Source: a virus
Reading direction: 5' to 3' (one strand)
DNA length: 27,916 nt
Virus record (IMG/VR): IMGVR_UViG_3300030102_002867
Span: 1 to 27,916 of that record
A program made the translations under genes and the position numbers. This document shows positions 3,130 through 24,629 of the stretch, piece after piece; positions within the stretch are counted from its first letter, which is position 1, and each line of letters begins with the position of its first letter. Under the pieces are notes generated by a model. The model was not told where the DNA came from. It made no database searches and worked only from the letters and a program-made list of their open reading frames with translations.

Positions 3130-4103
3130 TGATAAATCTTTTACAAATTCAAGACGATTTAAAAAATTTTTCTGAAGATCAATTAGTAAGGGAAATGCAA
3201 CAGCCTAGCGGCACTGCGCCCCAGTTTCTTGTTTTATCAGAGCTAAATAGAAGAAAAAGAGTTAAAGGTGAGTTTGCAGCTAGACAAGCACAACAAGCCC
3301 CAACAGTGGCTGAAGAAGTTGTGGCGGCTGCTGGTGTGCCGCAGTCAGGTATGATGGGTATGTCAGAGGCTATGGCTCCTGCAAGTGTTGACTCAGGTGG
3401 TATAGGGGCTATGATGCCACAAAACATGAAATCTGGTGGTGTTATTAGAGCGCAATCAGGTTTACCTGAAGATGAAATAGTAGATACTAGTTTTGACAGT
3501 GATTTTGATACACAAGGTGGATCACAAATGATGCCAATGGGTATTAATCAAAAGTTAAATTTAACTTCTGAAGATGATGACGTTCTTGATATAGAGCAAG
3601 AATTAAGAAATAGACAGGCTATGCTTGAATCTGACAGAAACTTTGCAAGAAATATGGCTTTAGTACAGGCAGGATTAGGTATATTGGCATCAGATAAACC
3701 AACATTAGCTCAGGCAGTTGGTGAAGGTGGCCAACAAGGACTAACTGCTTTTACAGATGCAAATAAAGCATATCAAGAAGGATTGACTGATGTACTGAAT
3801 GCTAGGTCCAAGTTACAACAAGCTAGAATAAAAGCATCAGGCAAAGGCACTTTAGATAGAAAAGGGGCTTTGGCTGCAATAAGTTCTTATAATAATGATA
3901 TAGCGGCAATCAGAAAACAAATATCTGACGTATCTACTAGTTATGAAGGCGATCCTAGAGAAATACCTCAAAAGTTAGCAGCATTAGAAGAAGAATTAAA
4001 TAGATTAAGATTTGAGCAATCACAGCTTTATGATGCTGCAGGTATAAGACCAAGACCAAAGATAAAAGTAGCTGATTTACCATCTTCAACAAAGAGTGAA
4101 TAA
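3129..4103 (+). CDS. Virion-block protein upstream of the giant internal protein
   Basis: This 324-residue protein has three parts. The conserved N-terminus (INLLQIQDDLKNFSEDQLVR, then MQQPSGTAPQFLVLSELNRR) recurs in marine podovirus virion proteins. A Met/Gly/Gln-rich linker covers residues 75 to 125. The C-terminal half is helical (155-310), ending in a coiled-coil-like stretch. A hydrophobic patch near 175-190 could contact membrane. The role is unknown, and position suggests an internal core or scaffold partner of the giant protein. It overlaps both neighbours by one base (TGATG, TAATG). A copy of the dispersed AAGTTAA inverted repeat lies inside the gene at 3552-3567, encoding KLNLT. Confidence 0.6.
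   Translation: MINLLQIQDDLKNFSEDQLVREMQQPSGTAPQFLVLSELNRRKRVKGEFAARQAQQAPTVAEEVVAAAGVPQSGMMGMSEAMAPASVDSGGIGAMMPQNMKSGGVIRAQSGLPEDEIVDTSFDSDFDTQGGSQMMPMGINQKLNLTSEDDDVLDIEQELRNRQAMLESDRNFARNMALVQAGLGILASDKPTLAQAVGEGGQQGLTAFTDANKAYQEGLTDVLNARSKLQQARIKASGKGTLDRKGALAAISSYNNDIAAIRKQISDVSTSYEGDPREIPQKLAALEEELNRLRFEQSQLYDAAGIRPRPKIKVADLPSSTKSE
3552..3567. repeat. Dispersed inverted repeat, copy 1 (in a gene)
   Basis: AAGTTAAATTTAACTT is a perfect 16-base palindrome: arms AAGTTAA and TTAACTT, centre AT. It lies inside the coding region of the 324-residue virion protein and is followed by CTG, like copy 2. Confidence 0.8.
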
Positions 4104-7100
4104 TGGGTTCTTATTCTACTATAAGCCCCGTAACTGGTAAGTTATATGACTTTGAGATACAGGGTGATACACCTAATGAAGAAGAATTAGATAAGATATC
4201 TAATTATATTGCCAATGATGGCGTAACTCCACAAGAAACTACAGTTGCCGAAGCAAATGATGATGATGCCACATTCAGTGCAGGAATAGGCAGAGGTGTT
4301 GACTTAATACAACAAAGTTATGGATCTGCACTAGAGGGTATCGGTAAAGTAACTGGATTACAGGGATTACAAGATTATGGCGCTCAGGTAGCAGAAGATA
4401 ATGAGAAAGAACTAGAGGCTTCTGCAGGCAGCGCTAGACAACTAGCTGATATAAATGATGTTGGTAGTTTTATTGACTACATGCAGGTTAATTTAGGTCA
4501 ACAATTACCTAATTTAGCACCAAGTTTAGCAGGTGGATATGCTGGTGCAAAAGGCGGAGCAACAATAGGATCTTTTTTAGGGCCTGCTGGTACAGTGATT
4601 GGTGGAACAATAGGTGGTATTGTTGGCGCCACAGCGGCTAATTTACCTTTTTTCTATGGCATGAACAGAGAGGCCCAAAAAGAAGAAATAGAAAAGGGTA
4701 ACAAAGTAGAGTTGAGTGAGGGTGCAGCAGCGCTTACTGCGATACCACAGGCTGCTCTAGATGCTATTGCAGATAGATTGTTAATAAGAGGTTTTTTAAG
4801 TCCATTAGTAACAGGTGGTGGATTATTTACTCGAGGTGTAAAAGGTGCGGCTAAAGGTATTATATTAGAAGCTCCTACAGAAATAGGTCAGCAGGTTTTA
4901 GAAAGAGCGCAAGCAGGTAAAGAGTTATTTAATGAAGAAGCATTAGATGAATATCTTGAGGTAGGTGTAGCTGCTGGTCTACTTGGTGGTACGATTAGAG
5001 GCACAGGTGAGATAATAGGCGGTAAAAGGGCGGCTAATAAAACAGACGAACTAGCCCAAGACGCTGTATTAGAAGAAGAGCAAGCTAGACAAAGAGGTAA
5101 AAACTTCCAAGATATTAGTGGTTTAAAAGCTCAAACAATACTAGATGAAAATGAAAAGCAAGTAAAAGATGCCCCTGTAGAACAGGTTGAGCCTTTTACT
5201 AGTGTGTTTGGTAAAGAGCTTACACAAAGTGCTGTGGACAACAAAGTTGCAAGAGAAACAGCAGATCCTCTACAGGCGGCCAGAGAGACCACGCTGCCAT
5301 TCAAACCAATAAAATTATCAAGTTTACCCAAAGATGAAGCATTGCGTATAGCGCAGATTCGTCAACGCACCGGGTCCCAAGCACCAAGTGCTGACGTTAC
5401 TATAGCTGAATTAGAAACTTCTATAAGCCCTGAAGCAGCGCAGCGTGAGAGGATTAAGCAAAAACCATTACTTTCACAGGGTAAAGCTCTCTTTGAAAGA
5501 CAGATAAATAATCTAGACACGCCACAAGATATATCTGCATTTGCAACAGATACAGCAGGTATAATAGAAGAGTTGATTGCTACAAATAAACTTAATCAAA
5601 AAAATCTTACACAATCGTTAGATATTAATAATCAAGAAGCTAATGAAGTTATAAAATATTTAGAAGATGCAGGGCATGTAAAGCGTGAAAAAGGCAGACT
5701 AAAAAAAGGTAACGATGATATAAAAAGTCTATCTACAAAAGCTGATGCCACAAAGGCTAGAGCTAACGACCTGTTAAAAGATCAGCAAAACATAGAAAAA
5801 GACAGGGTAAACATACCAGATGCAGATCAACAGCTAGACAGGATAGCTCAGGAGTATGCACAACTTCAAGAAAATGCTTTTCAAATAGAAAAACTAGGGA
5901 AAAAGGTAGGCAAAGACACAAAAAAATTAAAAGCCTCTAATATTACGCCTGATTTTGTTGCCAAGCGCACATCAGACAAAGCTGAAAAAGCACAATTTAC
6001 AGATGAGTATAAGTTAAAATTAACTTCTGTACTTAATAATTTAAAGAAGCAACTCGTTGATCTTGGCTTGAAAGACATAGAGCTAAGAGATCAAAGTATT
6101 ATAGAGAATGATGCCAGTATCGAAGGTTACTTTACCACATCACCTGCTGGTAAGCGTGTTATAGGACTTGCTATGGATCTGTATGATCCTAATTTAACAG
6201 ATGCACAGCTTACAGATAAACTTGCTGGTGTTATGAACCATGAGTTAATTCATGCATTAAAAGACATGAACTTTTTTACAGAGCAAGAATACACAACACT
6301 TGTAAATGCCGCTAATAAAAGAAAGTTTGTAATAGAAATAAATGGTGTAGATACCACTAGGAAATACACATATATGGAGAGAGCGGCTCGTATATATCAA
6401 AAGAAAGATGATGGTACAGATTACACAAAAGAAGAGGTAGCAGAAGAAGCTATAGCTGAAATGTATAGGCACTATGTACAGGGCAGATTACCTGTTGTAG
6501 CCAAGCCAAAGGGTATATTTGACAAGATTACCAGATTTATAAAGGCAATATTTACATCACATATAGATTCAGGTTTTATGAATGCCGATGATATATTTGC
6601 TAATATCAATAAAACAAATGTAGAGCAACGTATTAAAGATCGTGCCAACATACCGTCAGGAGCAAGAAGCAATCAAAAATATTCTACCGCCGGAATAGTT
6701 GCTGGTTATATTAGACCTAAATTAGGCAATATAGAAAGAATTAAACAGTCATTTAAAGATGTTACAGCAAGAATAGATGTTTTAGAAAAAGCTGCAAAAA
6801 GATTACAAAATGATGAAATAGATTATAAGACGTATGATAAATTAGTAAATGATGTTAAGCCTATAGTTCCTTATGAAACTGTGCCTAAACCAGCTACAGT
6901 ACAAGAGATGACTAATGCTCTTGATGAGAATAAAGTTGCTAAAATAAATAAAATATCAACCATACCAAATGGAACTCCAGTACAGTTAAGATTAGATATA
7001 CCTGCTTATACAAGAAAGGGAGTCTGGGTTCCAACTATACATGGGACAAATGAAACTGATGCATTAGGTTTAGGAAGAAGAAATCAATCTATAGCCCATG

Positions 7101-10100
7101 AAAGCGTGGCTATAGTTAATAATGCAGATTTGTTTATGAAAGAAGCATTTCAAAAAGTGGGTTTAAGAATAGCCTCGGGCGCGCAAAAAGGACCGTATGC
7201 TACAATAAGTGGTGAGTTAGAGCAAACAACCCCTGATGCGGCATTTGCAGAAGCACAAGCGGCTTTAAATGATCCTACATTTATTCAAGTTGGTTTTGAT
7301 CCTACAAGGCATTCTTACTTTTACGATAGAATGACAACACAGCCAGTTATATCAGCCGATAGAATAATACAAGTTGGCCCACTTGTTATGGCTAAAAATC
7401 CTGTTTTTGAGGGTAAAGAAATTTTTAAATATTCTAAAACAGGTTCTTCTATAGAAAGGGCCCGCAGAACATTCGATAAAGATGGTGATGCTCTTATAGA
7501 TAGCACTATAGTTGACGAGTATGATGACAAAGGCGATATAAAGCCACAGCCTGAGTATCAAACTAATCCAGACCAAGCCACACCTGCTATTAAAGAAAAA
7601 GTATTAAAAATTGATGCTTTAAGAAATCATCAAAAGAAAAGAAAAAACAAAACATTTGATATACATTCTGAAAATCTAGAAGAAAGAGAAAATAATAGGG
7701 AAAATGTTGCAATAATGCTTGCTGCTGAGGCTGAACGAGCATTGCAAAAAGATAATAATGCTATTGGATGGTATGGTAGGACACTAGATAAAACAAAAAA
7801 ATTAGTAACTAAATTATTATATCCTAATATTAATCAGCCAAGTCACAAACTTGCTTTTGATTTTGCTTTATCTGTTACATCTAATGGTATAGGCGTTGTA
7901 CAAAATTTTGGTTACGCATCGCAACAATATGAAAGTTGGTTAAAATCTAGCGATGTAGATTCAGAAAGAAGATTTCCAATAAACGGATGGGGTAAAAGAG
8001 TACAAGCTATGGAAAAGGCTTTTGCTTTTTATAATGCCATGAAAGACAATGGCGTATCTACAGAAGAGTTTGTAGAGTTTATGAATCACAAAACAACTCC
8101 TGCGTTATTAAGAAAAAATAGCTACATATTAGAAACTCAACAAACTGTAGACAGCAAAGAAGCTGCTAATGAGCCTGTAAATGGTTCGTATATTATAGGT
8201 CCAAAAATAGGTCAGGGTTTTTATCAAAACTTAATTGGTAATTTTGATAACTTGACTATGGATATATGGTTTACAAGAACTATAAATAGATTAACAGGAT
8301 TTCCATTTGAACCACCAAAATTACCAGCTACGTTACAAAGACAAGTAGAGCGAGTTGACCTTGCTTTATCTGGTAGAAAAAGAGATGGAAGAGCGGCTAA
8401 TGCTCCTATAATAGATAATCCATTAACAGATCTAGATATTGAGTTAATACAAAATACAGAAGAAGCAACAGGTATAGATGTGGTAACTGAAGCAAATATG
8501 CTACAGTTTTCAAAAGAATATGCCAAAGAATATCAAAGGTGGAGAGGGAGAACTGAAAGACAATTTGAAAAAGAAACAGGTAGAAAAGCTAAAGAATTAC
8601 AGTTACCCGAAAAAACAGAATTACAGTTAGCAACAGAGTCGTTTGTAAATGCAAGAGAGGATGTAGAACAAGAAGACCCAAGAAACGTACAAGATAGACA
8701 GGCATTTAGACAAATTGTTAATAGAGCTAGAGAAATATTAAAAGAAGATACTGGCACTGATATAAGTAACGCAGACTTTCAAGCACTTATTTGGTATGCA
8801 GAAAAGCAATTATTTGAAGCTCAAGGAGTAAAAAAATCACAGGGTGATGATAACGATTATTTAGATGGCGCTATATTTTTATTACAATCAAAAGGAATAG
8901 AAAATGACCAAATCACAGAAGCACTTCCCGAAGCAGACAGAAACAGAGTCTATAGTAGAACAAGTCCCTATGGAAGAGATGGACAATTTCGTGAAAGAGT
9001 TACTGGAGAGCTACAGGTCGAATCAGATACAGACACCGAAATTGAAGGACTAGGTGAAAGCGAGACTATATACGAATTTATAGATCCTGAGCTAAGAGCT
9101 AAAGCTGAAGAAGATGGATTAGATATAAAATATTCTATGCTTGGTAGTATGTTTGCCAAAGACTCTAGTTTGTCATTTGTAGACAGACCTATAAGAGGAA
9201 CAGAAACTAAATTTGGTGATGTTTTAGGAAACATAGCCGCAGCAAAAAGAAGAAGAGAAGCAAGAAATAGTCCATCTATAAAATTATTTGGTTTAGTTGA
9301 AGATATAACTGGTAAACTTAATCATGTTGTTGTGCAAGAAGGCACACATACAGATTTGGGTAATGGTAAGTATGGTGGCTTTGGATTAGCTCATATAAGG
9401 GGTAAAAGATTTAATAAAGATGGTAGACCAATATTAACACATTCACAAGAAATATTAAGAAATCATGATTTTCGATCTGACTTAGAAGCTATTGAGCAAA
9501 TGCTTAGGGCATATAAAACACAAAAAAATAACTTTGCAAAAGCATTTTATGATGAAGCTCGTGATAACATGGGCATAAGAGTTGAGCCTGACGGAGGCAT
9601 TGGTAATAATGATTTAAGGATAGAGTGGACAAAATCTAGAACTAAAAATGGTAGTGAGAATAAACTAGTTATGTCATTGAAATATGACAATACTACTTTA
9701 AAAAAAGGTGGTTTATTTGGTAAGCCTGTACAGACATTACCTTTATACACTGTTCGTACAATATTCTCTACACCACAGCAGTCAGAGATAAGAAAAAGAT
9801 CTCAGATAAGCTCTACACCAGTTAATGTTACAAGTCCTAACTCAGCGCAGATTGCTAAAGACATACAGGCTAAAAGACAAAAGATTAGATACGATAATTT
9901 ATCAGGTATAATAGCAAAAGGTTTAGGCTTCACCATGCCACAAGACGAGGCAAAGTTAAAGGCTCAGAGATTTTTAACTTATTTTCAAGATGCCATGTTA
10001 CCTGTTGGTGCTTTAATGGACAAGTTGCGTAGTGAAGGTTTAACAATCACTGATGCTATGGACACATATATGCAAGAAGAAAGATATCAGGGTATAGCTG

Positions 10101-12757
10101 GTAATAAGGTTAGAATAGTTCAAGAAGAATTATTTGAACCTATGATGGAAAAGATAAGAAAACTAAATATATCTGATGCAAAAATAGCCGAACTAAAAGC
10201 TATAAAAGGCCCAGTAGATCTAGGCTTCTTTGCATTTGCAGATGAAAAATATGCAAGCCAAAAGTTAGCGATTATGGATACTGTTCTTTACGCGCAGCAC
10301 GCTCTAGAACGTAATGACTACATACGAAAAAAAACAAATGGTCAAAATAATGCAGGCTCAGGCATGACTGATAGAGAGGCTACAGAGATAAATAATTGGG
10401 TAAAAAGTTTATCACTTGCAGAGAGAGGTCAGATAGAAAATGTTGTAGCGGATGTAAGAAACATAAATGAAAATACTATTGATGCCAGAATAGAGGCTGG
10501 TCTTCTTCCAAAAGATACAAAGACAAGAGACAGAAGTGATCCTGATGCCATTATTATCTATGATAATTATGTTCCTTTACAAGGTGATTTAGATATAGAA
10601 CAAGAGAAGTTGTTGTATGACGAGGGCTATGGGCGTAAGCGTAGAATAAGCAACTACTTTGGTATAGCAGGCAAGCTAGACAAAACAGCAAAAGGTAGAA
10701 AATACGATAACTATGCCCAAAATATAATTGCTTCATTAATGGCGCAAAATAATAACACTATTGCAAAAGGTGAAAGAAATAAAGTTGGCTTATCCTTCTT
10801 TAATCTAATCCGAGGCCAAGAAGAACAAGCTGACGGATCTGTCGCTACAAACGCTACCTTAGCTACAGAGATGAATAAGATAGGAGAAGATATAACAGGT
10901 CAATCTCTACAAGAAAGAAGAGGTAAAGATATTACCGCAGAAGATGAATTAGTTTTAAGAGAAGATGGTCAAGAGAGAATAATACATATAAAAGACAGAA
11001 GAATAGCCAACGCTTTAAATGGATCTATGAATCCACATCAAAGTAATAAACTTATTAGATTTATGGGTAAACTTAACAGATATCTATCTGCTATCAACAC
11101 TACATATAACCCATCGTTTGTTATACCAAACTTCTTTAGAGACTTAGAAACAGCGGGTGTGAATGTTCAACAATATGATGAAAAAGGGTTAACAAAAGAA
11201 GTTACAAAGGGTGCTTTTCCTGCTGTATTTGGAATAGTAAAAGAACTAAGAAATAAAGGCAGTAATGATCCTTGGGCTATAGAATATAGAAAATTTGAAG
11301 AGGCAGGCGGTAAAAATGCTACTAACCAAATGAGTGATCTTCAAGATCAAATAGAAAATGTAAAAGGATTATTAGATGATATAAGCGAAAATACTTTAAA
11401 AAGTAAGTTTGGTTTGCAAAAAAGACAGTTTGTAGGAAAAAATATTAATAGTGCGTTAACTTTATTAGACGATGTGAATACAGCGGTAGAAAATGGTGTT
11501 CGTGTAGCAACGTTTAAAGCGCTGCGTGAAAGAGGAATGACCGCAACACAAGCCGCTCAAGCCGCTAGGAACGTCACCGTAAACTTTGCGAAGGGTGGTG
11601 AAAATAAAGTTGCCATGAATAGTTTATATTTATTTTATAATGCATCACTACAAGGGTCTATGGCACTTATAAATGCGGCTATTAGATCTCCTAAGGTAAG
11701 AAAGCTATGGGGCGGTATGGTTGTGTATGGTATATTCCAAGACCAGATCAACTCATTATTTTCTGGAGATGAAGATGGCGATGGAATTAAAGACTATGAT
11801 GAACTACCAAGATATATACTTGAACATAACTTAATCTTTCCAACACTTGGGTTAGCTGATGACAAGTTTATATCTATACCTCTTGGCTATGGACTAAATA
11901 TGGCAGTTAACTTTGGAAGAGCTTTAAGTAGAACACAGCGTGGCGAGTACACGGCTGGAGAGGCTACTCGCACCATAGTAGGAACTGCTATAGAAAGTTT
12001 AAGCCCGATAGGTGCTTTTGATCACTATCTTACATTTGCCGCTCCTACAGTAGCTGATCCATTTATCAGTTTAGCTATTAACGAAGACTATAAGGGAGAT
12101 CCTATATATAAAGAAAGCCCAACATTTTCTTCTGTGCCAAAGCCAAACAGTCAGCAATATTGGTCTAATACTGGCAGAATACCAAAGTTCATAGCAGATC
12201 AGTTGAACACTCTCACACTAGGAGATGAAGTTGAAAGCGGATATTTGGATTTTTCTCCTGATGTAATAGAATATTGGATTGACTATCTTACTGGTGGTGC
12301 GGGAAGATTTGTTCAAAGAACTGCTGAAATGCCACTTAATATTATGGATGCTCTGAATGGTGACCTTGAGGTAAGCCTATGGAGTACAGTTCCTTTTGCT
12401 AGAAAGGTTATTGCTTCTCCCTCCGAGAGGCAGGACACTGGTAATTACTTAGATAATAGACAAGACCTATTTACAATATTAGCTAGAGTTGATTTAGCCA
12501 AGAGATCAGGGGATCGTGAGGCAGTTATCGCTATGTACGACAAATATAAAAAAGAACTTAGTATTGCGGGAAGATTGAAGGCGATAGACAATGCAAGAAA
12601 CAGAATCATCAGGCAGATTAGAGAAATAGAAAAGAATCCTCGAATACCTGAAGAGACCAAAAGAAATCTTATACGTCTACGCAGAGACAAGATAAAAGAC
12701 TTACAACAAACGGGCTTGATATTAATGAGATCCGTGGGCTTCAAAAAGGCGGGATAA
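4103..12757 (+). CDS. Giant polyvalent internal virion protein (2884 aa)
   Basis: This is probably stored in the capsid and ejected with the DNA, as T7 gp16 and other polyvalent phage proteins are. Recognisable parts, in order: glycine-zipper hydrophobic segments at about 143-178 and 284-307; a winged-helix-like stretch at about 485-530; a zincin-like HELIH at 713-717 with Glu-rich helix candidates for the third ligand near 777-785; a conserved module at about 945-1110 (GVWVPTIHG, then HSYFYDR and QVGPLVMAKNP) known to me from phage polyvalent proteins; a candidate BECR-type nuclease domain at about 1715-1905 with GGFGLAHI (H1764); a segment near 2336 (NPSFVIPNFFRDLETAG) resembling LPD38; and an EF-hand-like loop at 2556-2567. 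The start overlaps the previous stop by one base. The individual functions are inferred. The frame is intact throughout. Confidence 0.85.
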   Translation: MGSYSTISPVTGKLYDFEIQGDTPNEEELDKISNYIANDGVTPQETTVAEANDDDATFSAGIGRGVDLIQQSYGSALEGIGKVTGLQGLQDYGAQVAEDNEKELEASAGSARQLADINDVGSFIDYMQVNLGQQLPNLAPSLAGGYAGAKGGATIGSFLGPAGTVIGGTIGGIVGATAANLPFFYGMNREAQKEEIEKGNKVELSEGAAALTAIPQAALDAIADRLLIRGFLSPLVTGGGLFTRGVKGAAKGIILEAPTEIGQQVLERAQAGKELFNEEALDEYLEVGVAAGLLGGTIRGTGEIIGGKRAANKTDELAQDAVLEEEQARQRGKNFQDISGLKAQTILDENEKQVKDAPVEQVEPFTSVFGKELTQSAVDNKVARETADPLQAARETTLPFKPIKLSSLPKDEALRIAQIRQRTGSQAPSADVTIAELETSISPEAAQRERIKQKPLLSQGKALFERQINNLDTPQDISAFATDTAGIIEELIATNKLNQKNLTQSLDINNQEANEVIKYLEDAGHVKREKGRLKKGNDDIKSLSTKADATKARANDLLKDQQNIEKDRVNIPDADQQLDRIAQEYAQLQENAFQIEKLGKKVGKDTKKLKASNITPDFVAKRTSDKAEKAQFTDEYKLKLTSVLNNLKKQLVDLGLKDIELRDQSIIENDASIEGYFTTSPAGKRVIGLAMDLYDPNLTDAQLTDKLAGVMNHELIHALKDMNFFTEQEYTTLVNAANKRKFVIEINGVDTTRKYTYMERAARIYQKKDDGTDYTKEEVAEEAIAEMYRHYVQGRLPVVAKPKGIFDKITRFIKAIFTSHIDSGFMNADDIFANINKTNVEQRIKDRANIPSGARSNQKYSTAGIVAGYIRPKLGNIERIKQSFKDVTARIDVLEKAAKRLQNDEIDYKTYDKLVNDVKPIVPYETVPKPATVQEMTNALDENKVAKINKISTIPNGTPVQLRLDIPAYTRKGVWVPTIHGTNETDALGLGRRNQSIAHESVAIVNNADLFMKEAFQKVGLRIASGAQKGPYATISGELEQTTPDAAFAEAQAALNDPTFIQVGFDPTRHSYFYDRMTTQPVISADRIIQVGPLVMAKNPVFEGKEIFKYSKTGSSIERARRTFDKDGDALIDSTIVDEYDDKGDIKPQPEYQTNPDQATPAIKEKVLKIDALRNHQKKRKNKTFDIHSENLEERENNRENVAIMLAAEAERALQKDNNAIGWYGRTLDKTKKLVTKLLYPNINQPSHKLAFDFALSVTSNGIGVVQNFGYASQQYESWLKSSDVDSERRFPINGWGKRVQAMEKAFAFYNAMKDNGVSTEEFVEFMNHKTTPALLRKNSYILETQQTVDSKEAANEPVNGSYIIGPKIGQGFYQNLIGNFDNLTMDIWFTRTINRLTGFPFEPPKLPATLQRQVERVDLALSGRKRDGRAANAPIIDNPLTDLDIELIQNTEEATGIDVVTEANMLQFSKEYAKEYQRWRGRTERQFEKETGRKAKELQLPEKTELQLATESFVNAREDVEQEDPRNVQDRQAFRQIVNRAREILKEDTGTDISNADFQALIWYAEKQLFEAQGVKKSQGDDNDYLDGAIFLLQSKGIENDQITEALPEADRNRVYSRTSPYGRDGQFRERVTGELQVESDTDTEIEGLGESETIYEFIDPELRAKAEEDGLDIKYSMLGSMFAKDSSLSFVDRPIRGTETKFGDVLGNIAAAKRRREARNSPSIKLFGLVEDITGKLNHVVVQEGTHTDLGNGKYGGFGLAHIRGKRFNKDGRPILTHSQEILRNHDFRSDLEAIEQMLRAYKTQKNNFAKAFYDEARDNMGIRVEPDGGIGNNDLRIEWTKSRTKNGSENKLVMSLKYDNTTLKKGGLFGKPVQTLPLYTVRTIFSTPQQSEIRKRSQISSTPVNVTSPNSAQIAKDIQAKRQKIRYDNLSGIIAKGLGFTMPQDEAKLKAQRFLTYFQDAMLPVGALMDKLRSEGLTITDAMDTYMQEERYQGIAGNKVRIVQEELFEPMMEKIRKLNISDAKIAELKAIKGPVDLGFFAFADEKYASQKLAIMDTVLYAQHALERNDYIRKKTNGQNNAGSGMTDREATEINNWVKSLSLAERGQIENVVADVRNINENTIDARIEAGLLPKDTKTRDRSDPDAIIIYDNYVPLQGDLDIEQEKLLYDEGYGRKRRISNYFGIAGKLDKTAKGRKYDNYAQNIIASLMAQNNNTIAKGERNKVGLSFFNLIRGQEEQADGSVATNATLATEMNKIGEDITGQSLQERRGKDITAEDELVLREDGQERIIHIKDRRIANALNGSMNPHQSNKLIRFMGKLNRYLSAINTTYNPSFVIPNFFRDLETAGVNVQQYDEKGLTKEVTKGAFPAVFGIVKELRNKGSNDPWAIEYRKFEEAGGKNATNQMSDLQDQIENVKGLLDDISENTLKSKFGLQKRQFVGKNINSALTLLDDVNTAVENGVRVATFKALRERGMTATQAAQAARNVTVNFAKGGENKVAMNSLYLFYNASLQGSMALINAAIRSPKVRKLWGGMVVYGIFQDQINSLFSGDEDGDGIKDYDELPRYILEHNLIFPTLGLADDKFISIPLGYGLNMAVNFGRALSRTQRGEYTAGEATRTIVGTAIESLSPIGAFDHYLTFAAPTVADPFISLAINEDYKGDPIYKESPTFSSVPKPNSQQYWSNTGRIPKFIADQLNTLTLGDEVESGYLDFSPDVIEYWIDYLTGGAGRFVQRTAEMPLNIMDALNGDLEVSLWSTVPFARKVIASPSERQDTGNYLDNRQDLFTILARVDLAKRSGDREAVIAMYDKYKKELSIAGRLKAIDNARNRIIRQIREIEKNPRIPEETKRNLIRLRRDKIKDLQQTGLILMRSVGFKKAG
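6011..6026. repeat. Dispersed inverted repeat, copy 2 (in the giant gene)
   Basis: AAGTTAAAATTAACTT has perfect 7-base arms and an AA centre. It lies inside the giant gene at about residues 637-642. It is identical in sequence to the copies at 13603, 16891 and 19388, although it is coding here. Confidence 0.85.
11768..11803 (+). other. EF-hand-like calcium loop within the giant protein
   Basis: Residues 2556-2567 read DEDGDGIKDYDE. This fits the 12-residue EF-hand or dockerin loop, with Asp at positions 1, 3, 5 and 9, Gly at 6 and Glu at 12. It follows a hydrophobic stretch (MVVYGIFQDQINSLF) and precedes another (YILEHNLIFPTLG). It is a single copy, so calcium binding is plausible but unproven. 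Confidence 0.6.
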
Positions 12758-12773
12758 AAGTTAATTTTAACTT
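12758..12773. repeat. Dispersed inverted repeat, copy 3 (abuts a stop codon)
   Basis: AAGTTAATTTTAACTT is the reverse complement of copy 2. It begins at the first base after the TAA of the giant gene, in the convergent gap between blocks 1 and 2. A further half-site (AAGTTA) follows at 12784. Confidence 0.9.
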
Positions 12774-12956: not shown

Positions 12957-13178
12957 TTATTTGATTTTTTTTATTAATTCCTTGAGATACCATTGTGCTT
13001 TTTCAAGATCCTCTATCTGATTCTTGTTGTTCTTATGCTCGTATCTCCAAAGGTATTTCATAACGTTACCTTGTAAGTAGTATTTATAACCATCGCCTAG
13101 TGCTGACTGTATTGCGTCTATACACTCTACCTTACCTTTTCTGTAGTGCTTTGGTCTATTAACATTGTCTTGTTTCAT
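12957..13178 (-). CDS. DUF3310 family small phage protein
   Basis: This 73-residue protein matches the DUF3310 pattern: NVNRPKHY at the start, then VECIDAIQSALG, GNVMKYLWRYEHK and DLEKAQWYLKEL. The family is common in phages and has been linked to T7 gp1.7, a nucleotide kinase, but no nucleotide-binding loop is visible in this short form, so the function is open. AGGAGAT is correctly spaced before the ATG at 13178. The gene overlaps the end of the upstream nuclease gene by 20 bases and is the last gene of the leftward recombination block. Confidence 0.85.
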   Translation of the reverse strand: MKQDNVNRPKHYRKGKVECIDAIQSALGDGYKYYLQGNVMKYLWRYEHKNNKNQIEDLEKAQWYLKELIKKIK

Positions 13179-13602
13179 CTGTATCTCCTATTCTTTTAAA
13201 ATACTTCAAGTCGAAGTGACACATTGGCTCTTGATCTTGCCAATCGTTGCGGTCTGATCTGCCACCTTGCTTGATGGTGAAGGGGCAAAAAACATCCAAA
13301 TACACAATTACATCTAGGTACGACACCAAAATAATTGAAGTAGTATTTGTTTGGTCTGCAAGCCTCCTAGCTTCTAAGACCTTTGCTAGTGATATTATGT
13401 ATGTGGGGAATGTTCCAAAGTTATGAGTTCGGCATTTTACTTCCGCCCAGCCCACCAGATCATCATTGCGGTATATTGAATAATCTAACTTGTATGACAT
13501 TGGAAGTTTGTAATAGACCACACCCCAACACTTTGAGATGTGATCTAATACTTTTTTTTCTGATTTTCTATCTTGAGAATTTTCGTATAAATCCCTAGCC
13601 AT
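13159..13602 (-). CDS. Small PD-(D/E)XK nuclease
   Basis: This 147-residue protein carries a PD-(D/E)XK-type signature: E15 in the first helix, D40 (KLDYSIYR) and E54-V-K56 (GWAEVKCR), followed by alternating strands (IILVSYLDVIVYLDV). Similar stand-alone nucleases are frequent in marine phages, and the size resembles T7 endonuclease I. Likely roles are branched-DNA cleavage or DNA degradation. The start at 13602 has no Shine-Dalgarno sequence because the dispersed inverted repeat (13603-13618) directly abuts the ATG. The upstream gene stops inside that repeat, 10 bases away, so translation may depend on reinitiation. Confidence 0.75.
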   Translation of the reverse strand: MARDLYENSQDRKSEKKVLDHISKCWGVVYYKLPMSYKLDYSIYRNDDLVGWAEVKCRTHNFGTFPTYIISLAKVLEARRLADQTNTTSIILVSYLDVIVYLDVFCPFTIKQGGRSDRNDWQDQEPMCHFDLKYFKRIGDTDETRQC

Positions 13603-13618
13603 AAGTTAAAATTAACTT
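13603..13618. repeat. Dispersed inverted repeat, copy 4 (abuts a start codon)
   Basis: AAGTTAAAATTAACTT lies between two - strand genes. It contains the TAA stop of the HTH gene (13614-13612) and ends one base before the nuclease ATG. It therefore occupies the place where a ribosome binding site would be expected. Confidence 0.9.
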
Positions 13619-13845
13619 CTAGGGCTATTCTCTAACCAAGCGACAATATCTTCTTTCTTGTAAAGTTTCTTTGGTCTATTTCTTTCAGACCTGACTATCT
13701 CGAAACCTTTTGGAAAGTTAGAGTTCTCATCCTTGATTATGTTATATAAAGTCATGCGACTTATAGAAAGATAGTTGGCAACACCATCTAAGGTTAAATA
13801 ATCCGATTGTGTATCAGCATTATTCTCCGACTTTTTCTTGGTCAT
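13612..13845 (-). CDS. AlpA/excisionase-type helix-turn-helix protein
   Basis: This 77-residue protein consists of a short basic and polar lead (1-15) and a MerR-like HTH of the AlpA/excisionase group: DYLTLDGVANYLSISRMTLY (16-35) is the HTH. The wing and the end are GFEIVRSERNRPKKLYKKED then IVAWLEN. Such proteins act as DNA-bending excision factors or transcription regulators. I chose the ATG at 13845 because AAAGGA lies six bases upstream; an upstream in-frame ATG at 13878 lies inside the previous gene. No integrase is visible, so a regulatory role is at least as likely as excision. It is the only clear small DNA-binding regulator in the window and a candidate reader of the dispersed inverted repeats. 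Confidence 0.8.
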   Translation of the reverse strand: MTKKKSENNADTQSDYLTLDGVANYLSISRMTLYNIIKDENSNFPKGFEIVRSERNRPKKLYKKEDIVAWLENSPRS

Positions 13846-14061: not shown

Positions 14062-14388
14062 TTAGAATGGTATTGGATCATCAAAGCTATCGTCATCCTT
14101 TGGCTCTTCTTTTTTAGTTTCTTTAACCTCTGTGATTCCGTCTTTTCTATCTTTTTCTACGTTGGCAATTATCCTGAGATAAGGCTTTTGTGTGGTTCTG
14201 CCTACCTTTTTCCAACCAACTAGATTTACTTTTGGAATTGCAATACCCTCATTCTTTTGTGCAATAAGGTCATTAACAACATCCATCTCAAATTCTAAAG
14301 ATCCTGAGTAGTCAGGGCTTTTCTCAGTCCTCTTAGATTTAGCGGTAAACAATGCTCCCGTTGCGGGAAATTTATTATCATCTTCCAT
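14062..14388 (-). CDS. SSB-like protein with acidic C-terminal tip
   Basis: The N-terminal 80 residues form a short beta-rich region compatible with an OB fold (TGALFTAKSKRTEK, then IPKVNLVGWKKVGRTTQKPY and LRIIANV). A charged linker leads to a C-terminus DDDSFDDPIPF, which closely resembles the DDDIPF tip by which bacterial SSBs recruit partners. It would coat single-stranded DNA during replication and recombination. At 108 aa it is shorter than typical SSBs (about 150-180 aa). It lies directly after the probable annealing protein, overlapping it by 11 bases, with GGAG before its ATG. The fold assignment is inferred from the tip and the context. Confidence 0.65.
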   Translation of the reverse strand: MEDDNKFPATGALFTAKSKRTEKSPDYSGSLEFEMDVVNDLIAQKNEGIAIPKVNLVGWKKVGRTTQKPYLRIIANVEKDRKDGITEVKETKKEEPKDDDSFDDPIPF

Positions 14389-15082
14389 TTTCTTCTCCTT
14401 TGTTATTTTCTATTTCCAATGATCTTGCTTTGAAAGCCTCTTCAACTTCCTCGAAGTCTTTTTCAGATACTGCTTTCAGTATTTCTCTAGGTTCTTTGTT
14501 GCTCTTCCAAAAATTTACAATATCTTGTCTATTGTTTTGGATAGGTAGGAAAGTTATAAAACATTCTTTTATAAATTCTGCACCCTTAACCCATTCCTCT
14601 TTGCCATCTAGATGAACAAACTTAGCTTTAGGCAGATCGTCTTTATTTTCAGTTTCAATAGTGCCACCCTTTATTTCTTTAGGTCTTTCTTCTTTAAAAC
14701 TGTCAGCCTCATCCTCTGCATATACATCCCCGTGCAAACCAACAAGTTTTAGTATTACTCTATCCTTGGCTCTTTTTTCTGCCATAGCATATGGATAACT
14801 ATTTTTATTGTTAGATGGGGATGCCTCGCCTATAGACCATTCAGACTTATCGCCCATATGACCCATGACCATAAGACTAACGATACGTTTACTGCTATCG
14901 CTTTCTAATATCTGAGGGGCATCAAACTTTATATTTCTTTTTACTGCCACTTTTTCCAATGCTTTATGCAAAAGCACATAAGTTCCGTGACAGTTCCAAC
15001 CCGCCTCTTGATGAGTCATGCCGATTTCTTTCAAGGTTTCGACAACCTTATCAGGTATATTGCTCCTCATAGTTTCATCCAT
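14378..15082 (-). CDS. Probable single-strand DNA annealing protein
   Basis: This 234-residue protein has a conserved core: HGTYVLLHKALEKVAVKRNI, a VSLMVMGH-type strand, then NSYPYAMAEKRAKDRVILKL-VGLHGDVYAEDEADSF. The AMAEKRAKDRVILKL helix resembles the AETRA-type helix of Rad52/Erf/Sak phage annealing proteins. A variable charged C-terminal half follows, which may bind partners such as the SSB-like protein encoded next. It should anneal complementary strands after resection by the nearby exonuclease. It overlaps the basic protein gene upstream by 16 bases and the SSB-like gene by 11. An alternative start is the ATG four codons downstream. The family call is moderate because it rests on one motif plus context. 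Confidence 0.6.
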   Translation of the reverse strand: MDETMRSNIPDKVVETLKEIGMTHQEAGWNCHGTYVLLHKALEKVAVKRNIKFDAPQILESDSSKRIVSLMVMGHMGDKSEWSIGEASPSNNKNSYPYAMAEKRAKDRVILKLVGLHGDVYAEDEADSFKEERPKEIKGGTIETENKDDLPKAKFVHLDGKEEWVKGAEFIKECFITFLPIQNNRQDIVNFWKSNKEPREILKAVSEKDFEEVEEAFKARSLEIENNKGEENGR

Positions 15083-15291
15083 AATCTAATTTTATCTCGG
15101 ATGTTGGCATACCAACGTAACAAAAAGAACGTCTTGATAGGTTTGCCTTTTCCTGTAGCCTGTACAATATGCTCGGCTATCAAAGATGCATCCTTAGGTC
15201 TAGTGCTTGTTATCTTTGGCTTTAGTTTAACAACACCGCTTTTCTTTACTTTTCTTACAACCTTTTTAGGTTTTGGTTTTTGTTCTTTCAT
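15067..15291 (-). CDS. Small basic protein, function unknown
   Basis: The product has 74 residues. The first 30 are strongly basic and Pro-rich (KPKPKKVVRKVKKSG), then comes a possible helical domain (DASLIAEHIVQATGKGKPIK) and a Trp/Arg-rich end (TFFLLRWYANIRDKIRLW). It may bind nucleic acid. I chose the ATG at 15291 because GAGGGAG precedes it; a longer frame to 15348 would run into the exonuclease gene. It overlaps the exonuclease stop by four bases and lies between exonuclease and annealing genes, so a recombination accessory role is likely but unproven. Confidence 0.6.
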   Translation of the reverse strand: MKEQKPKPKKVVRKVKKSGVVKLKPKITSTRPKDASLIAEHIVQATGKGKPIKTFFLLRWYANIRDKIRLWMKL

Positions 15292-16190
15292 TGCTCCCTC
15301 TCTTTCTTTTGTTTGCAAAAATCGGCAACCGAACAATAGTTGCCACATCGTGTGTACTCGCCACTACGAAACTCTATCTCTAAATCTGTTTTCTTGGTGT
15401 AGGCTTGGTCAGTTTCATTATGCCAATCGATGTAATTGTTTGCTTCTTCTTCACTATCTAAAACTCTTATGGCTCTTTTCTGACCCTTTTTCTTTACTGC
15501 CCAAGTGTCATTCTTTTTCCACATATCTTCATCACTACAAAGCCCAACGTCTTCATTTAAATCAAAGCTAATCTGAGCCTCTTGATGCATTCTAATTCTT
15601 TCTTTGATGTATTCTTCTGTTTTGTTTTTATCCCACAAAGGTATATCAACAAAAACTATTGGTGCTTTTGGATAATCTTCTTTTTTCTCGGCATCCCGTC
15701 TATTCCAATCCCTGAGGATTGCACATATTTTTAAACTGCCCACATTCTCTTTTGATGCTAGATATGCATAGCAGTTTAATTGATTTTCCCACTCAGGCTT
15801 TCCGTATATCACAGACCAAACTGAAGTAACTTTGTAATCAATTATGTTTACAGTCCTAGAGCCATCATCGTTGGAAATAAATTCTTGCCTATCTATTGCA
15901 CCTGATAAAACCCAACCATCTACTTCTTTGTAGAGCCTTTCTTCAGTTATAATATCATCGGATTGTTTTGAATTTTCTAATACTGAATGAACCGCAGTTC
16001 CGAATAATGCCCAAACCATATCGACTGCATCGACCTCTATTTGATCGTCATACTTGTCTTTCATCAATCTTATCTTGGGGCTATCTATCAAAGATGTAAC
16101 TGATATATCAGCTTTACCTTTACTGTATTTATCATTTATGGCAAAGTCCACAAAGGGCTGTGGCATCCCAAAGTTATTAGTGATTTTCAT
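15288..16190 (-). CDS. Cas4/RecB-like PD-(D/E)XK exonuclease
   Basis: This 300-residue nuclease is probably the recombination exonuclease that resects DNA ends. Family motifs in order: GTAVHSVLE with H68 and E72, SGAIDRQE with D100, IIDYK with D118 and K120, and Q137 in NQLNCYAYL. Four cysteines, C218, C282, C286 and C292 (the last three in RCGNYCSVADFC), resemble the Fe-S cluster set of Cas4 and AddB, although here the first Cys follows the nuclease core and the second spacing is CxxxC. I chose the ATG at 16190 because AAGGAG is at the proper distance; an upstream extension to 16232 has no ribosome site. It is the first gene of the leftward block, with a promoter in the 45-base divergent gap. 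Confidence 0.85.
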   Translation of the reverse strand: MKITNNFGMPQPFVDFAINDKYSKGKADISVTSLIDSPKIRLMKDKYDDQIEVDAVDMVWALFGTAVHSVLENSKQSDDIITEERLYKEVDGWVLSGAIDRQEFISNDDGSRTVNIIDYKVTSVWSVIYGKPEWENQLNCYAYLASKENVGSLKICAILRDWNRRDAEKKEDYPKAPIVFVDIPLWDKNKTEEYIKERIRMHQEAQISFDLNEDVGLCSDEDMWKKNDTWAVKKKGQKRAIRVLDSEEEANNYIDWHNETDQAYTKKTDLEIEFRSGEYTRCGNYCSVADFCKQKKEREQ

Positions 16191-16213
16191 GTTAAACTCC
16201 TTACGCACTTTTA

Positions 16214-16242
16214 TAAATAATAGGAACACCAACTTATGTCAA
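16214..16242 (-). promoter_or_regulatory. Leftward promoter of the recombination block
   Basis: On the - strand, TTGACA (16242-16237), a 17-base spacer and TATTTA (16219-16214) precede the exonuclease gene. The perfect -35 box overlaps the start codon of the divergent RusA gene (ATGTCAA). The predicted site at 20101-20129 has the same layout. Confidence 0.5.
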
Positions 16243-16628
16243 TAAAAACCCATAAAAAAATAAATTTTATTATTGAGGGCGAACCCGCAAGCAAGGCAAA
16301 CTCAAGAAAAATAGTTAGTTTTGGAAAAAGAATGGGAGTTATAAAATCTCAAAAAGCTAGGGATTATGAAAAAATATTTGCAAGCCAATGCCCACAATTA
16401 GAAAATCTTATTGAAACTGATGTTAAAGTAGAGTTAATTATATACTACGCATCTAGGAGACCTGATTTAGATGAAAGTGTAATCCTAGATTGCATGCAAG
16501 GAAAAATATATTTGAATGACAGACAAGTTAAACACAAGGTCGTATATTGGGGATTGGATAGAGAGAGACCTAGAACTCATGTCCGAGTGTCGGCTTTGGA
16601 AACATGTGATGTGCCAAGCGATTTCTGA
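16236..16628 (+). CDS. rusA: RusA-like Holliday junction resolvase
   Basis: This 130-residue protein matches the RusA endodeoxyribonuclease family: IIEGEPASKANSRKIV near the start, KSQKARDYEKIF, then RPDLDESVILDCMQGKIYLN and DRQV. The Asp residues D77, D79 and D95 fit the catalytic acidic set (D70, D72 and D91 in E. coli RusA). It would resolve four-way junctions made during phage recombination and replication. It starts at the ATG at 16236, with a weak AGGA 11 bases upstream, and diverges from the exonuclease block across a 45-base gap. Its end overlaps the next gene by 50 bases. Confidence 0.88.
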   Translation: MSIKTHKKINFIIEGEPASKANSRKIVSFGKRMGVIKSQKARDYEKIFASQCPQLENLIETDVKVELIIYYASRRPDLDESVILDCMQGKIYLNDRQVKHKVVYWGLDRERPRTHVRVSALETCDVPSDF

Positions 16629-16836
16629 TTTATATTTAGGTAGCCCAAAACAAAAACTATCGGTAGCCGAATGGATTTGCAGTCAGGATTTTCAAGACGT
16701 ATGCGATATGGCTGAACTAAACCCAAGTAAAATAAAACCACATTTAGACAAGATAGCAACAAGCAAGCCCGTTGTCGCTAGGTACTTGGGAGAAAGATTA
16801 AAACGAGTAATTCAGAGCCGAAGTGTGTTCCACTAG
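16579..16836 (+). CDS. Small conserved phage protein downstream of RusA
   Basis: The predicted 85-residue product (RLWKHVMCQAISDLYLG, then SVAEWICSQDFQDVCDMAEL and NPSKIKP) resembles a family of short phage proteins with an N-terminal LWKAVILQAL helix and a DFxxVCxLAGxxP motif that often neighbour primase or resolvase genes. The function is unknown; the second half could be a helix-turn-helix. The ATG at 16579 gives the family-like N-terminus. The ribosome site is weak, and ATGs at 16516 and just after 16600 are alternatives. It overlaps RusA by 50 bases in another frame. Its stop codon lies within the first ACTAGTTATAACTA palindrome. Confidence 0.65.
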   Translation: MSECRLWKHVMCQAISDLYLGSPKQKLSVAEWICSQDFQDVCDMAELNPSKIKPHLDKIATSKPVVARYLGERLKRVIQSRSVFH

Positions 16837-16910
16837 TTATAACTAATACTAGTTATAAATATATATATATATACTAGTTATAACTAGTAGAAGTTAAAAT
16901 TAACTTTTAC
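16832..16910. other. AT-rich palindrome cluster: candidate replication origin or operator array
   Basis: Three copies of ACTAGTTATAA start at 16832, 16848 and 16873. The third is a perfect palindrome, ACTAGTTATAACTAGT (16873-16888). An uninterrupted AT run (16859-16873) separates them, and the dispersed inverted repeat follows at once (16891-16906). All share the AGTTA half-site. The cluster sits about 130 bases before the primase-helicase gene, in an AT-rich gap (16837-17038) with no gene. Iterons plus an AT-rich unwinding stretch next to a helicase gene suggest an origin. A regulator-binding array is the alternative. Confidence 0.55.
16891..16906. repeat. Dispersed inverted repeat, copy 5 (upstream of the primase-helicase)
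   Basis: AAGTTAAAATTAACTT is extended on both sides to an imperfect 24-base palindrome (16887-16910) with one mismatch pair. It adjoins the ACTAGTTATAACTAGT palindrome. Confidence 0.9.
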
Positions 16911-16985: not shown

Positions 16986-17014
16986 TTGACTAGATTTTTT
17001 TATAACACTATCTT
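16986..17014 (+). promoter_or_regulatory. Promoter of the primase-helicase gene
   Basis: TTGACT (16986-16991), a 17-base spacer and TATCTT (17009-17014) lie 25 bases before the ATG at 17039, which has AGGAGAG in front of it. The site is downstream of the palindrome cluster. Confidence 0.5.
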
Positions 17015-19387: not shown

Positions 19388-19403
19388 AAGTTAAAATTAA
19401 CTT
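19388..19403. repeat. Dispersed inverted repeat, copy 6 (abuts a stop codon)
   Basis: AAGTTAAAATTAACTT directly abuts the TAG (19406-19404) of the cell wall hydrolase gene and precedes the terminator of block 4. Confidence 0.9.
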
Positions 19404-21013: not shown

Positions 21014-22258
21014 TTAGTTCTCCTTTAAAACATAGTCTTTGATTATACTTCCAAGTTTAGGATTACCGCATTTCATTTGGTCAATCCAAACTCGCTTTTT
21101 TAATTTGCCATCTTTAGTTCTAAGAACTCTCCAATGACCTCTTCGCCAATGCTCTTTCTTAGGAGAGCCTTGACCCGTAAAAATCTTTTCGTATACCCTT
21201 TTACCTCTTGGCTTAGGTAAGGTTATCTCCAAGACTTTGTACTCGCTTTTAGGTGTATTCCTACCAAAAGATATATGATTAATCTTCTTGGGCGGAGTGA
21301 CACTTTCTTGAACTATAAAATCGTAATTCAATAATCCAAGTAATGATATTAGAAATCTAGGATCTCCCTCGAGTGAATGTATCGATTGTTGAAATCTCTT
21401 AACATCATTCATATTAATTTTTCTTTCCCAAGTAGACTTAGGAACTAACCATGCAGTACTTCCTGACTGAACCCATTTTATATGCTTTGATATATTGGGA
21501 GTTGTTGCAGAATTATAAGGATAAGCAGTAAGAGTATCATAATCTCTTTCAGCTATGCTTTTTACCAAGTTTTTATCTTTATAAAGTTTGTCTTTATAAT
21601 ACATTCCGTAAGTAAAACCCAAAGCCAACATACCTTGCATATTGGTATCTTTCCAATAATGCTCCTCACTACTTATAGGTGCATGACTTACCTGAGATAA
21701 ATACAAATCATCAGCATAAGTTAACTCTCTTTCATTATTAATATGAAAACACATCTCAGGACAAAAGAACTGATTGCTTTTTGATTTGTAATTAGCCCTT
21801 TCTAGTTCTCCATTTTTATACTGCCAATCAACTCTCTCGGGATCTAATTTGAAAAAACAATGATAAAGAAATTTATCATTAATATTTTTTATTAGATATC
21901 CAACTCTAGGCGGAAGACCCTCACTTAATGGCTCTACCTTGTCTTGACCTACTAAACTAATTAAATGATCTCTTAGTATCTTAGTTCTCAATGTCTCGTT
22001 CCATTCAATCCACATAGAATTAAATGGCGGTATTGCTCTTTTAAGAACATCGTATAAAGTTGATGGAGTGACATAACTAGCCTTGGCAGTATGCTCTAAT
22101 AGATTATCACTAACTACAAATTTTTGAGATGTAGCAAGTGTTGTTTGAAAACTCCTAATCTGAAATCGTGAGTACTTATGATCTTGATAATTAAAAATAC
22201 CTCGCTTAGGATTTGCAAAAGCTGATAATAATTCGTTAGCTAATATAGGTGTATGCAT
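21014..22258 (-). CDS. Large unknown phage protein (414 aa)
   Basis: I recognise no catalytic domain. The N-terminal half is mixed helix and strand with many aromatic residues; the middle includes CPEMCFHINNERELTY and a Tyr/Lys-rich stretch. The C-terminal part is strongly basic (HWRRGHWRVLR, KRVWIDQMKCGNPKLGSIIK) and resembles a short basic C-terminal region seen in several phage proteins of unknown role. Nucleic-acid binding is plausible for that part. The ATG at 22258 is favoured by GGAG eight bases upstream; a TTG at 22270 would put that site inside the gene. A degenerate dispersed repeat lies 12 bases before the ATG. The gene is AT-rich, unlike the GC-richer MoxR-VWA genes upstream. Confidence 0.75.
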   Translation of the reverse strand: MHTPILANELLSAFANPKRGIFNYQDHKYSRFQIRSFQTTLATSQKFVVSDNLLEHTAKASYVTPSTLYDVLKRAIPPFNSMWIEWNETLRTKILRDHLISLVGQDKVEPLSEGLPPRVGYLIKNINDKFLYHCFFKLDPERVDWQYKNGELERANYKSKSNQFFCPEMCFHINNERELTYADDLYLSQVSHAPISSEEHYWKDTNMQGMLALGFTYGMYYKDKLYKDKNLVKSIAERDYDTLTAYPYNSATTPNISKHIKWVQSGSTAWLVPKSTWERKINMNDVKRFQQSIHSLEGDPRFLISLLGLLNYDFIVQESVTPPKKINHISFGRNTPKSEYKVLEITLPKPRGKRVYEKIFTGQGSPKKEHWRRGHWRVLRTKDGKLKKRVWIDQMKCGNPKLGSIIKDYVLKEN

Positions 22259-22270
22259 TTGGTTCTCCAA

Positions 22271-22286
22271 AAGTTAAGTTTAACTA
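22271..22286. repeat. Dispersed inverted repeat, copy 7 (degenerate)
   Basis: AAGTTAAGTTTAACTA keeps the 7+2+7 layout with the last base of one arm changed. It lies between the stem-loop at 22292 and the ribosome site of the 414-residue gene. Confidence 0.6.
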
Positions 22287-22534: not shown

Positions 22535-22546
22535 GATTACTCCTTT

Positions 22547-23386
22547 CTAATCTAATAAGTTATTAAGTACATTTGATGTTATTCTCTTAGAGACATTGAC
22601 CTCAGCTAATCTTAACTCAGGGCTTATGGATGCAATGCACTTGGCTTGCTTATGACCCGCAATCCCGTTGTTATAGTAAGGCTCAGTCTCGAAAGCTACA
22701 CACCATAGATCTTTAATGACACTAACAATACCGCTTTTGGAACTAACGACATCGACCTTGTAAACTTTCATGTCTTTGTCTTCCAATCTAGCTATTGGTG
22801 TATATTTGAGATCAGCTATAAAGTGTGGTCTGCCTTTGTACTCGACACCTGATAGACCTCTTTTCCAAACTTTGTGAAACCACAAAGGGGATAGCTTTAG
22901 ACTACGTCTATCGTAAGTATACTTAGCTTGCTCTTTTTGATCAGGCTCTACAGTAAGAGAAAAACCCTTTTCACAGTAAATGCGAATGTTAGTTCTCTGA
23001 TGATTTTTACTCCACCAATCTAGAGCATGATCTTTGGTGTCTCTTATGGCTTTCTTGAATATATCAAACTTACTGAGATAGCCCTCTTGATCCAATAAGG
23101 AAAACTTTCTCGCATGTTCTCTATATTCTTGTATGCTTTTGAACATATTTGCCAAGCCAACTATTACCTGACCTTGATCGTAATCCAACATGGATCTGTA
23201 CTTTTCCATCTTTTGTTCACGAGCCTTGTCATACTTGGCATGACTACGATGATTGTAACTCATTGATACAATGTCATCGATCTCTAATCCAAACTTGGAT
23301 ACTGAATACTCAAAGGCATCTTTCATATTAAGGTATGTCTGATGCTTTGCTAAACTTTTGTTCTCTAAAATATTATCTATCTGCAT
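22547..23386 (-). CDS. Unknown phage protein (279 aa)
   Basis: I recognise no domain. The N-terminal two fifths are helical and charged (AREQKMEKYRSMLDYDQGQV), followed by a beta-rich, basic part (RTNIRIYCEKGFSLTVEP, then FHKVWKRGLSGVEYKGRPHF and VYKVDVVSSKSG). Two Cys-containing segments near the end do not form a clear zinc motif. The ATG at 23386 has GGAG at the usual distance. It lies between the VWA protein gene and a short unknown gene, and its role is unknown. Its GC content is intermediate between the AT-rich 414-residue gene and the MoxR-VWA pair. Confidence 0.7.
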   Translation of the reverse strand: MQIDNILENKSLAKHQTYLNMKDAFEYSVSKFGLEIDDIVSMSYNHRSHAKYDKAREQKMEKYRSMLDYDQGQVIVGLANMFKSIQEYREHARKFSLLDQEGYLSKFDIFKKAIRDTKDHALDWWSKNHQRTNIRIYCEKGFSLTVEPDQKEQAKYTYDRRSLKLSPLWFHKVWKRGLSGVEYKGRPHFIADLKYTPIARLEDKDMKVYKVDVVSSKSGIVSVIKDLWCVAFETEPYYNNGIAGHKQAKCIASISPELRLAEVNVSKRITSNVLNNLLD

Positions 23387-23418
23387 TGATTACTCCATGA
23401 TAGTAGTTGATGATTTGA

Positions 23419-23447
23419 CCACAAGCCCAAACTTAGGGGGCTTGTGG
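23419..23447 (-). other. Intergenic stem-loop with 10-bp perfect stem
   Basis: CCACAAGCCC and GGGCTTGTGG pair perfectly across a 9-base loop in the 75-base gap between the VWA protein gene and the next gene. No U run follows. A single AAGTTAA half-site lies beside it at about 23450. It is probably an mRNA processing or stability element. Confidence 0.6.
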
Positions 23448-23461
23448 ATAAGTTAATTTGG

Positions 23462-24598: not shown

Positions 24599-24613
24599 TA
24601 AGCATTCTCCTAA

Positions 24614-24629
24614 AAGTTAAATTGAACTT
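24614..24629. repeat. Dispersed inverted repeat, copy 8 (degenerate, abuts a stop codon)
   Basis: AAGTTAAATTGAACTT has one arm position changed. It abuts the TAG (24632-24630) of the MoxR gene and precedes the ribosome site of the VWA gene. An outer CCTA/TAGG pair extends the symmetry. Confidence 0.7.

Follow-up and report, generated by a model that had tools for sequence, protein, structure and literature searches.

What recognises a short palindrome that recurs at gene boundaries throughout a phage DNA, and what would its binding achieve? The question is raised by AAGTTAA-NN-TTAACTT, which is dispersed through a 27.9-kb IMG/VR fragment with mechanically called genes (the window, i.e. the whole stretch of 27,916 nucleotides analysed). 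The reading that we favour, with a probability of roughly one half, is that the repeats are operators of a phage-encoded dimer, most likely an HTH_17 protein encoded in the window, and would serve as a stoperator-like roadblock to elongation or as insulators. From sequence comparison we infer HTH_17 as the binder, its dimerisation here and the elongation block.

The repeat in the window

A pattern scan returned eight copies of the repeat, six perfect (starting at 3552, 6011, 12758, 13603, 16891 and 19388) and two with one mismatch (22271 and 24614), exactly where the initial annotation had placed them. Five perfect copies are a single 16-mer in either orientation, as had been claimed. Of the 12 perfect palindromes of 7-N2-7 form in the window, six have AAGTTAA as their arm, each of the other arms listed being present once. 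The expectation of far fewer than one chance copy is likewise borne out: eight matches to AAGTTAANNTTAACTT at up to two mismatches compare with a mean of 0.40 in 100 dinucleotide shuffles (maximum 2), and order-3 and order-4 Markov shuffles yield 0.07 and 0.0 copies when at most one mismatch is allowed, against eight in the window. The symmetry of the flanks, also pointed out earlier, is seen in the genome-wide matrix, tAn-AAGTTAAatTTAACTT-nTa. The site form of the window's own class is TAGAAGTTAAAATTAACTTCTA; AAGTTCA is the version of a different class.

Six of the eight copies are intergenic and two are genic, as first described. The genic ones are the perfect sites at 3552..3567, inside a 324-aa virion-region gene (3129-4103), and at 6011..6026, about 1.9 kb from the start of a 2884-aa gene (4103-12757). 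Two copies were correctly assigned to convergent boundaries, namely 12758..12773, immediately after the stop codon of the 2884-aa gene, and 19388..19403, right after the stop codon of a SleB-like gene (- strand) and before a strong hairpin. The site at 13603..13618 overlaps the stop codon of the HTH_17 gene and abuts the ATG of a PDDEXK_14 gene; a site at this boundary is retained in most relatives, its form altered where the motif class differs. The site at 16891..16906 lies in the 200-bp region upstream of the primase-helicase gene, with a conserved -35/-10 pair about 80 bp further downstream. Of the two one-mismatch sites, 22271..22286 separates two minus-strand genes and closely precedes a Shine-Dalgarno-like sequence and ATG, and 24614..24629 comes immediately after the stop codon of a MoxR-like ATPase gene, upstream of a VWA gene on the minus strand, a boundary that also has a site in the relatives G002 and G004.

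Three other features of the window were recorded along the way. The giant 2884-aa protein (4103-12757) has a HELIHAL metallopeptidase-like motif and is named 'large polyvalent protein' in Planktothrix phage Pag-Yong1. A 418-aa gene between sites (21014-22270) has a relative in only one of the 17 longer relatives (G001) and no family match, and is a lineage-specific insertion. Upstream of the primase-helicase gene, positions 16832-16892 hold ACTAGTTATAACTAGT repeats with a TATATATA core, which are conserved in relatives and look like a replication origin or another regulator's site.

One palindrome, several lineage versions

The window primase-helicase, used as query, retrieved 80 related loci, and 17 longer relatives were taken for comparison; apart from a few isolates the genomes compared are metagenomic fragments, their genes called mechanically like those of the window, and relatedness inflates every pooled count given here. 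The window repeat is one instance of a 22-bp palindrome present in nearly all relatives whose sequence suffices for a test, some short loci (e.g. L015 and L038) with few or zero matches having diverged forms or too little sequence. Relatives carry about 6-19 sites of roughly 18-27 bits, the lowest bit values (G018, G019 and G014) including doubtful sites. Within most genomes the motif is near-uniform; between lineages both halves shift together and symmetry is kept, which gives the versions AAGTTAANNTTAACTT, AAGTTCANNTGAACTT, (A)ACTTTACGTAAAGT(T) and GTTCAG-N-CTGAAC. The 22-bp consensus reads, by lineage, TAnAAGTTAANNTTAACTTnTA, AAGTTAACGTTAACTT-like, AAAAGTTCAATTGAACTTTT or CAAAACTTTACGTAAAGTTTTG. 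In Pag-Yong1 (68% GC), GTTCAG-N-CTGAAC recurs 33 times with no more than one mismatch versus 0.25 in shuffles, and the motif is maintained in genomes spanning 32 to 68% GC.

The initial annotation had proposed a search of relatives and had staked its case on conservation in close relatives and on rarity in unrelated AT-rich phages. Close relatives keep sites in position at the same gene boundaries as the window, and seven other phages, including HTVC023P, HTVC027P and 023Pt_psg01 (35-36% GC), have zero copies of the three main versions at one mismatch. A de novo palindrome scan of the first 50 kb of four of these motif-free phages found none above the shuffled level. Three of the seven are AT-rich and marine with related packaging genes, and two are Pelagibacter isolates; all seven are devoid of the recombination module described below.

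A DNA site with a probable symmetric reader

The palindrome could in principle act as DNA or as RNA, and a DNA-binding dimer had been preferred at the outset. Pooled over 19 site sets, 758 changes are one-sided, 62 are complementary two-sided and 78 are non-complementary two-sided. Left-right pairing amounts to 1936 cells versus 1996 expected from shuffled halves, a deficit that probably arises from the score threshold, in a pooled test that ignores kinship between genomes; there is no compensatory excess. The half-sites vary independently, and an RNA hairpin, which would call for covariation, is therefore ruled out; an Rfam search of the window gave no match. An intrinsic terminator was also rejected: the site is rich in AT, and any hairpin terminator present stands beside it and not within it. 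Independent halves, together with the lineage-wide symmetric shifts, uphold the original preference and argue strongly for recognition by a symmetric DNA-binding dimer, which is probably encoded by the phage.

The genic copies appear to be under selection as DNA. At 6011, synonymous identity is 0.94 versus 0.51 in the flanks, the top of 949 six-codon windows, and six genomes use the same codons for the peptide KLKLTS. At 3552, the codons AAG TTA AAT TTA ACT TCT are identical in six genomes and synonymous identity is 1.0 versus 0.59 in the flanks, a value reached by four overlapping site windows and one other. Relatives of different motif class carry other residues at the position matching 6011, so it is apparently the DNA site that sets the peptide there, and not the reverse.

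The candidate binding protein

The best candidate for the binder is a predicted HTH_17/AlpA-like winged-helix protein of 77 aa (13612..13845, - strand). Its HTH_17 match scores 27.2 bits against a cut-off of 27 (Pfam), and the Pag-Yong1 orthologue matches Phage_AlpA at 21.9 against a cut-off of 21. Orthologues are recognisable wherever the locus is covered, as far as the AlpA domain of Pag-Yong1; the gene for this Pag-Yong1 protein starts 11 nt downstream of a site. The HTH_17 alignment proved too poorly conserved to serve as a query against viral contigs. In the window the gene adjoins that of a putative nuclease, PDDEXK_14 (13159..13602, - strand; Pfam PF24579, E 9.7e-36), and a recombination module lies at 14062..16628, consisting of an SSB-like protein with an acidic tail, an ERF-like annealing protein, an exonuclease and RusA (the names SSB-like and ERF-like are presumptive).

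Presence of this module tracks the motif. Six families are common to the eight long motif genomes tested and missing from each of the seven motif-free phages, two of which were searched in the first 50 kb only: the virion-region protein, HTH_17, the SSB-like and ERF-like proteins, the exonuclease and RusA, families here being those testable across all genomes. The distribution of HTH_17 (8/8 versus 0/7) lends indirect support to the regulon of a phage regulator that had been envisaged, and HTH_17 alone among the six is predicted to bind double-strand DNA in a sequence-specific way. Since it travels with the whole recombination module, co-occurrence is not specific and cannot settle the binder alone. 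Partial Mantel values for motif versus protein distance do not single it out (0.15 for HTH_17, up to 0.30 for other proteins), and the loci L064 and L083 (G013 and G017) share a motif class and have different HTH_17 recognition helices. A monomer model (pLDDT 74) gave moderate-score Foldseek matches to excisionases, BldC, RacA-DNA and MerR-type DNA-binding domains, which are compatible with a binder role, short of proof. Taken as a whole, the case for 13612-13845 as binder of the palindrome is moderate.

The second HTH protein that had been proposed as binder, an 84-aa product (19865-20107/20119), did not find support. It is without Pfam or PHROG match, and its relatives occur only in genomes of the AAGTTA classes, so it cannot be the general binder. 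A conserved protein adjoining sites in G006 was considered as a regulator and set aside, its sequence reading as a terminase small subunit; in several genomes, namely G006 (52748-53272) and relatives, sites flank the gene for the small terminase.

Positions of the sites and what they would do

Across 12 marine relatives, a site is present in 22 of 27 convergent gaps versus 5 of 24 divergent gaps, where gap length would predict 12.1 and 9.8 occupied gaps, respectively (Fisher P 2e-5, ignoring relatedness). Sites in tandem gaps often start with the stop codon of the preceding gene, this codon then supplying the TAA or TAG of the motif flank; the Shine-Dalgarno sequence of the gene downstream comes next. 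The share of sites in non-coding DNA is roughly half to 80% in most genomes; in G016 it is only 3/17, which counts against the favoured reading. Pag-Yong1, too, weighs against it, having its one convergent gap empty and both divergent gaps occupied; its gap sites are mostly between cistrons of the same operon, often 4 nt after the stop and 22 nt before the start. Because sites stand mostly after stops, at nearly all convergent junctions, between cistrons and at times far inside long genes, elongation is the likeliest target. An HTH_17/AlpA-like dimer would sit on the ~22-bp palindrome TAnAAGTTAANNTTAACTTnTA at eight or more places and act on host RNA polymerase, most likely during elongation; such a dispersed roadblock or insulator would separate neighbouring transcription units and could silence operons at several points. 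A more far-reaching proposal, which we offer tentatively, is that in an uncultured, apparently lytic podovirus lineage one small AlpA-like winged-helix dimer and its palindromic boundary sites insulate and time all transcription units, making up a stoperator system independent of lysogeny whose specificity has been switched several times, with every site rewritten.

The sites might instead be architectural or segregation marks, i.e. spaced docking points for a DNA-organising protein of the phage, comparable to RacA, Noc or ParB sites on chromosomes and placed in gaps mainly because gaps tolerate them. We consider this unlikely, although sites are spaced more evenly than by chance in G012, G013, G015, G016 and Pag-Yong1 (P 0.001-0.008), the sites of G016 are mostly genic, one site is kept 1.9 kb into a long gene, and RacA-DNA structures are among the fold matches of HTH_17. 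Against these stand the preference of the marine group for convergent gaps and its avoidance of divergent ones, the lack of sites in most late structural genes of G002 and G006, and the uneven spacing in G006 and G017.

Conventional operators, each used by a phage activator or repressor of initiation at a nearby promoter, are doubtful too. Convergent junctions and gene interiors offer no obvious promoter to serve, and consensus promoters are not enriched in the window (46 versus 54 expected). The primase start lies about 25 nt downstream of a promoter-like element, TTGAC[TG]-N17-TATCTT (16986-17014), which is strongly conserved in the closer relatives. In the AAGTTAA clade the site is some 80 bp upstream of this -35/-10 pair, and therefore not placed as a classical repressor operator there; in G006 and G007 it is just upstream of the primase -35, which would suit an activator. 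Initiation would also fit the many tandem-gap sites 12-23 nt before a Shine-Dalgarno sequence or start, and those that precede the small terminase start by 14-16 nt in G006, G007 and G017.

A host protein, used by the phage or acting on it, is an improbable reader of the sites: the binder named above is so far a candidate only, but the motif shifts in concert between phage lineages, persists from 32 to 68% GC and is missing from other marine phages, among them two Pelagibacter isolates. Marks for recombination or processing by the ERF-like protein, exonuclease, RusA or PDDEXK nuclease can practically be dismissed. Most of the genes in question do occur together with the motif, and one site adjoins the PDDEXK gene; but cruciforms do not readily form on sequences as short as 16 to 22 bp, it is implausible that a nuclease would cut the genome of its own phage at 8 to 33 places, and PDDEXK_14 is undetected in three of eight motif genomes.

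Comparison with known systems

The preferred reading, a dispersed roadblock, recalls the stoperators of cluster A mycobacteriophages (L5 repressor type), which number more than 20 short sites per genome, many of them in short intergenic spaces, with motifs that are similar but not identical, genome by genome, between related phages (PMC9283540; PMC6550527). Here too, many copies (about 6-19, and 33 in Pag-Yong1) are dispersed over each phage genome, largely in short intergenic spaces. Stoperators are, however, asymmetric 13-bp sites, bound by a monomer, oriented with transcription and found in temperate phages with a known repressor (PMC9283540), whereas the present site is a symmetric 22-bp matrix and no integrase or repressor was seen among the genes inspected. 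The stoperator-like label of the initial annotation thus holds for location (after stops and at convergent junctions) and for site number; the palindromic form speaks against it, and lysogeny genes or prophages were not seen in the incomplete sequences inspected. We do not claim membership of the class because its defining asymmetry was looked for and the sites are symmetric.

In profile and predicted fold the candidate binder resembles AlpA/HTH_17/excisionase-type proteins (8c3t excisionase, RdfS, BldC and Pukovnik Xis). RdfS and BldC assemble head to tail into oligomers, in the case of BldC on direct repeats (PMC11963761); in contrast, the sites described here are palindromic, which counts against HTH_17 as binder. 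For RdfS/BldC-type proteins, the literature consulted describes no genome-wide palindromic site set. A search of the literature for dispersed palindromes in phages found nothing relevant, and the genome paper on HTVC023P-type phages mentions no promoters, palindromes or terminators (PMC9599517).

The Foldseek matches of the candidate also include RacA-DNA. RacA of the Bacillus chromosome is a MerR-like winged-helix dimer that binds dispersed, GC-rich inverted repeats. The likeness lies in this combination of a dimer and dispersed inverted repeats; unlike the phage sites, those of RacA are GC-rich and serve to anchor a chromosome in the cell, and no sequence relationship between the proteins was shown.

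The dispersed sites provide a testable regulatory code and a named candidate protein for widespread marine podoviruses with packaging genes related to those of Pelagibacter phages. Between lineages, 8 to 33 sites have been rewritten in concert, a natural series in which to study how a regulator and all its sites change specificity together. If the sites do stop elongation, dispersed transcription roadblocks are not confined to temperate actinobacteriophages.

The phage lineage and its relatives

Common genes of the lineage are a giant gene of 2,500-3,300 aa, the recombination module (ERF-like protein, exonuclease and RusA), the primase-helicase, the VWA protein and the MoxR-like ATPase. The early module is common to the lineage and Pag-Yong1, and HTVC023P and HTVC027P are without it. 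The large terminase of G006 shares about 55% identity with its counterpart in Pelagibacter phage HTVC027P and 48% with the one in Pag-Yong1. No integrase, repressor or lysogeny gene was seen among the genes inspected, the window and most relatives being incomplete, and a search of genome contigs for prophage relatives gave a single match, a phage-like contig binned with an archaeal MAG, and no clear prophage. The lineage is apparently lytic.

Two sets of database entries deserve mention. L132 (PBMQ01000020.1) is a 61-kb contig binned as a Euryarchaeota MAG, with a primase-helicase 45% identical to that of the window, and is probably a misbinned phage. OL906435.1, OQ594354.1 and PP438419.1 have the same length (65,014 bp), equal scores and three different recorded cyanobacterial hosts; the one that was read has 68% GC, and the three may be one phage of a co-cultured heterotroph.
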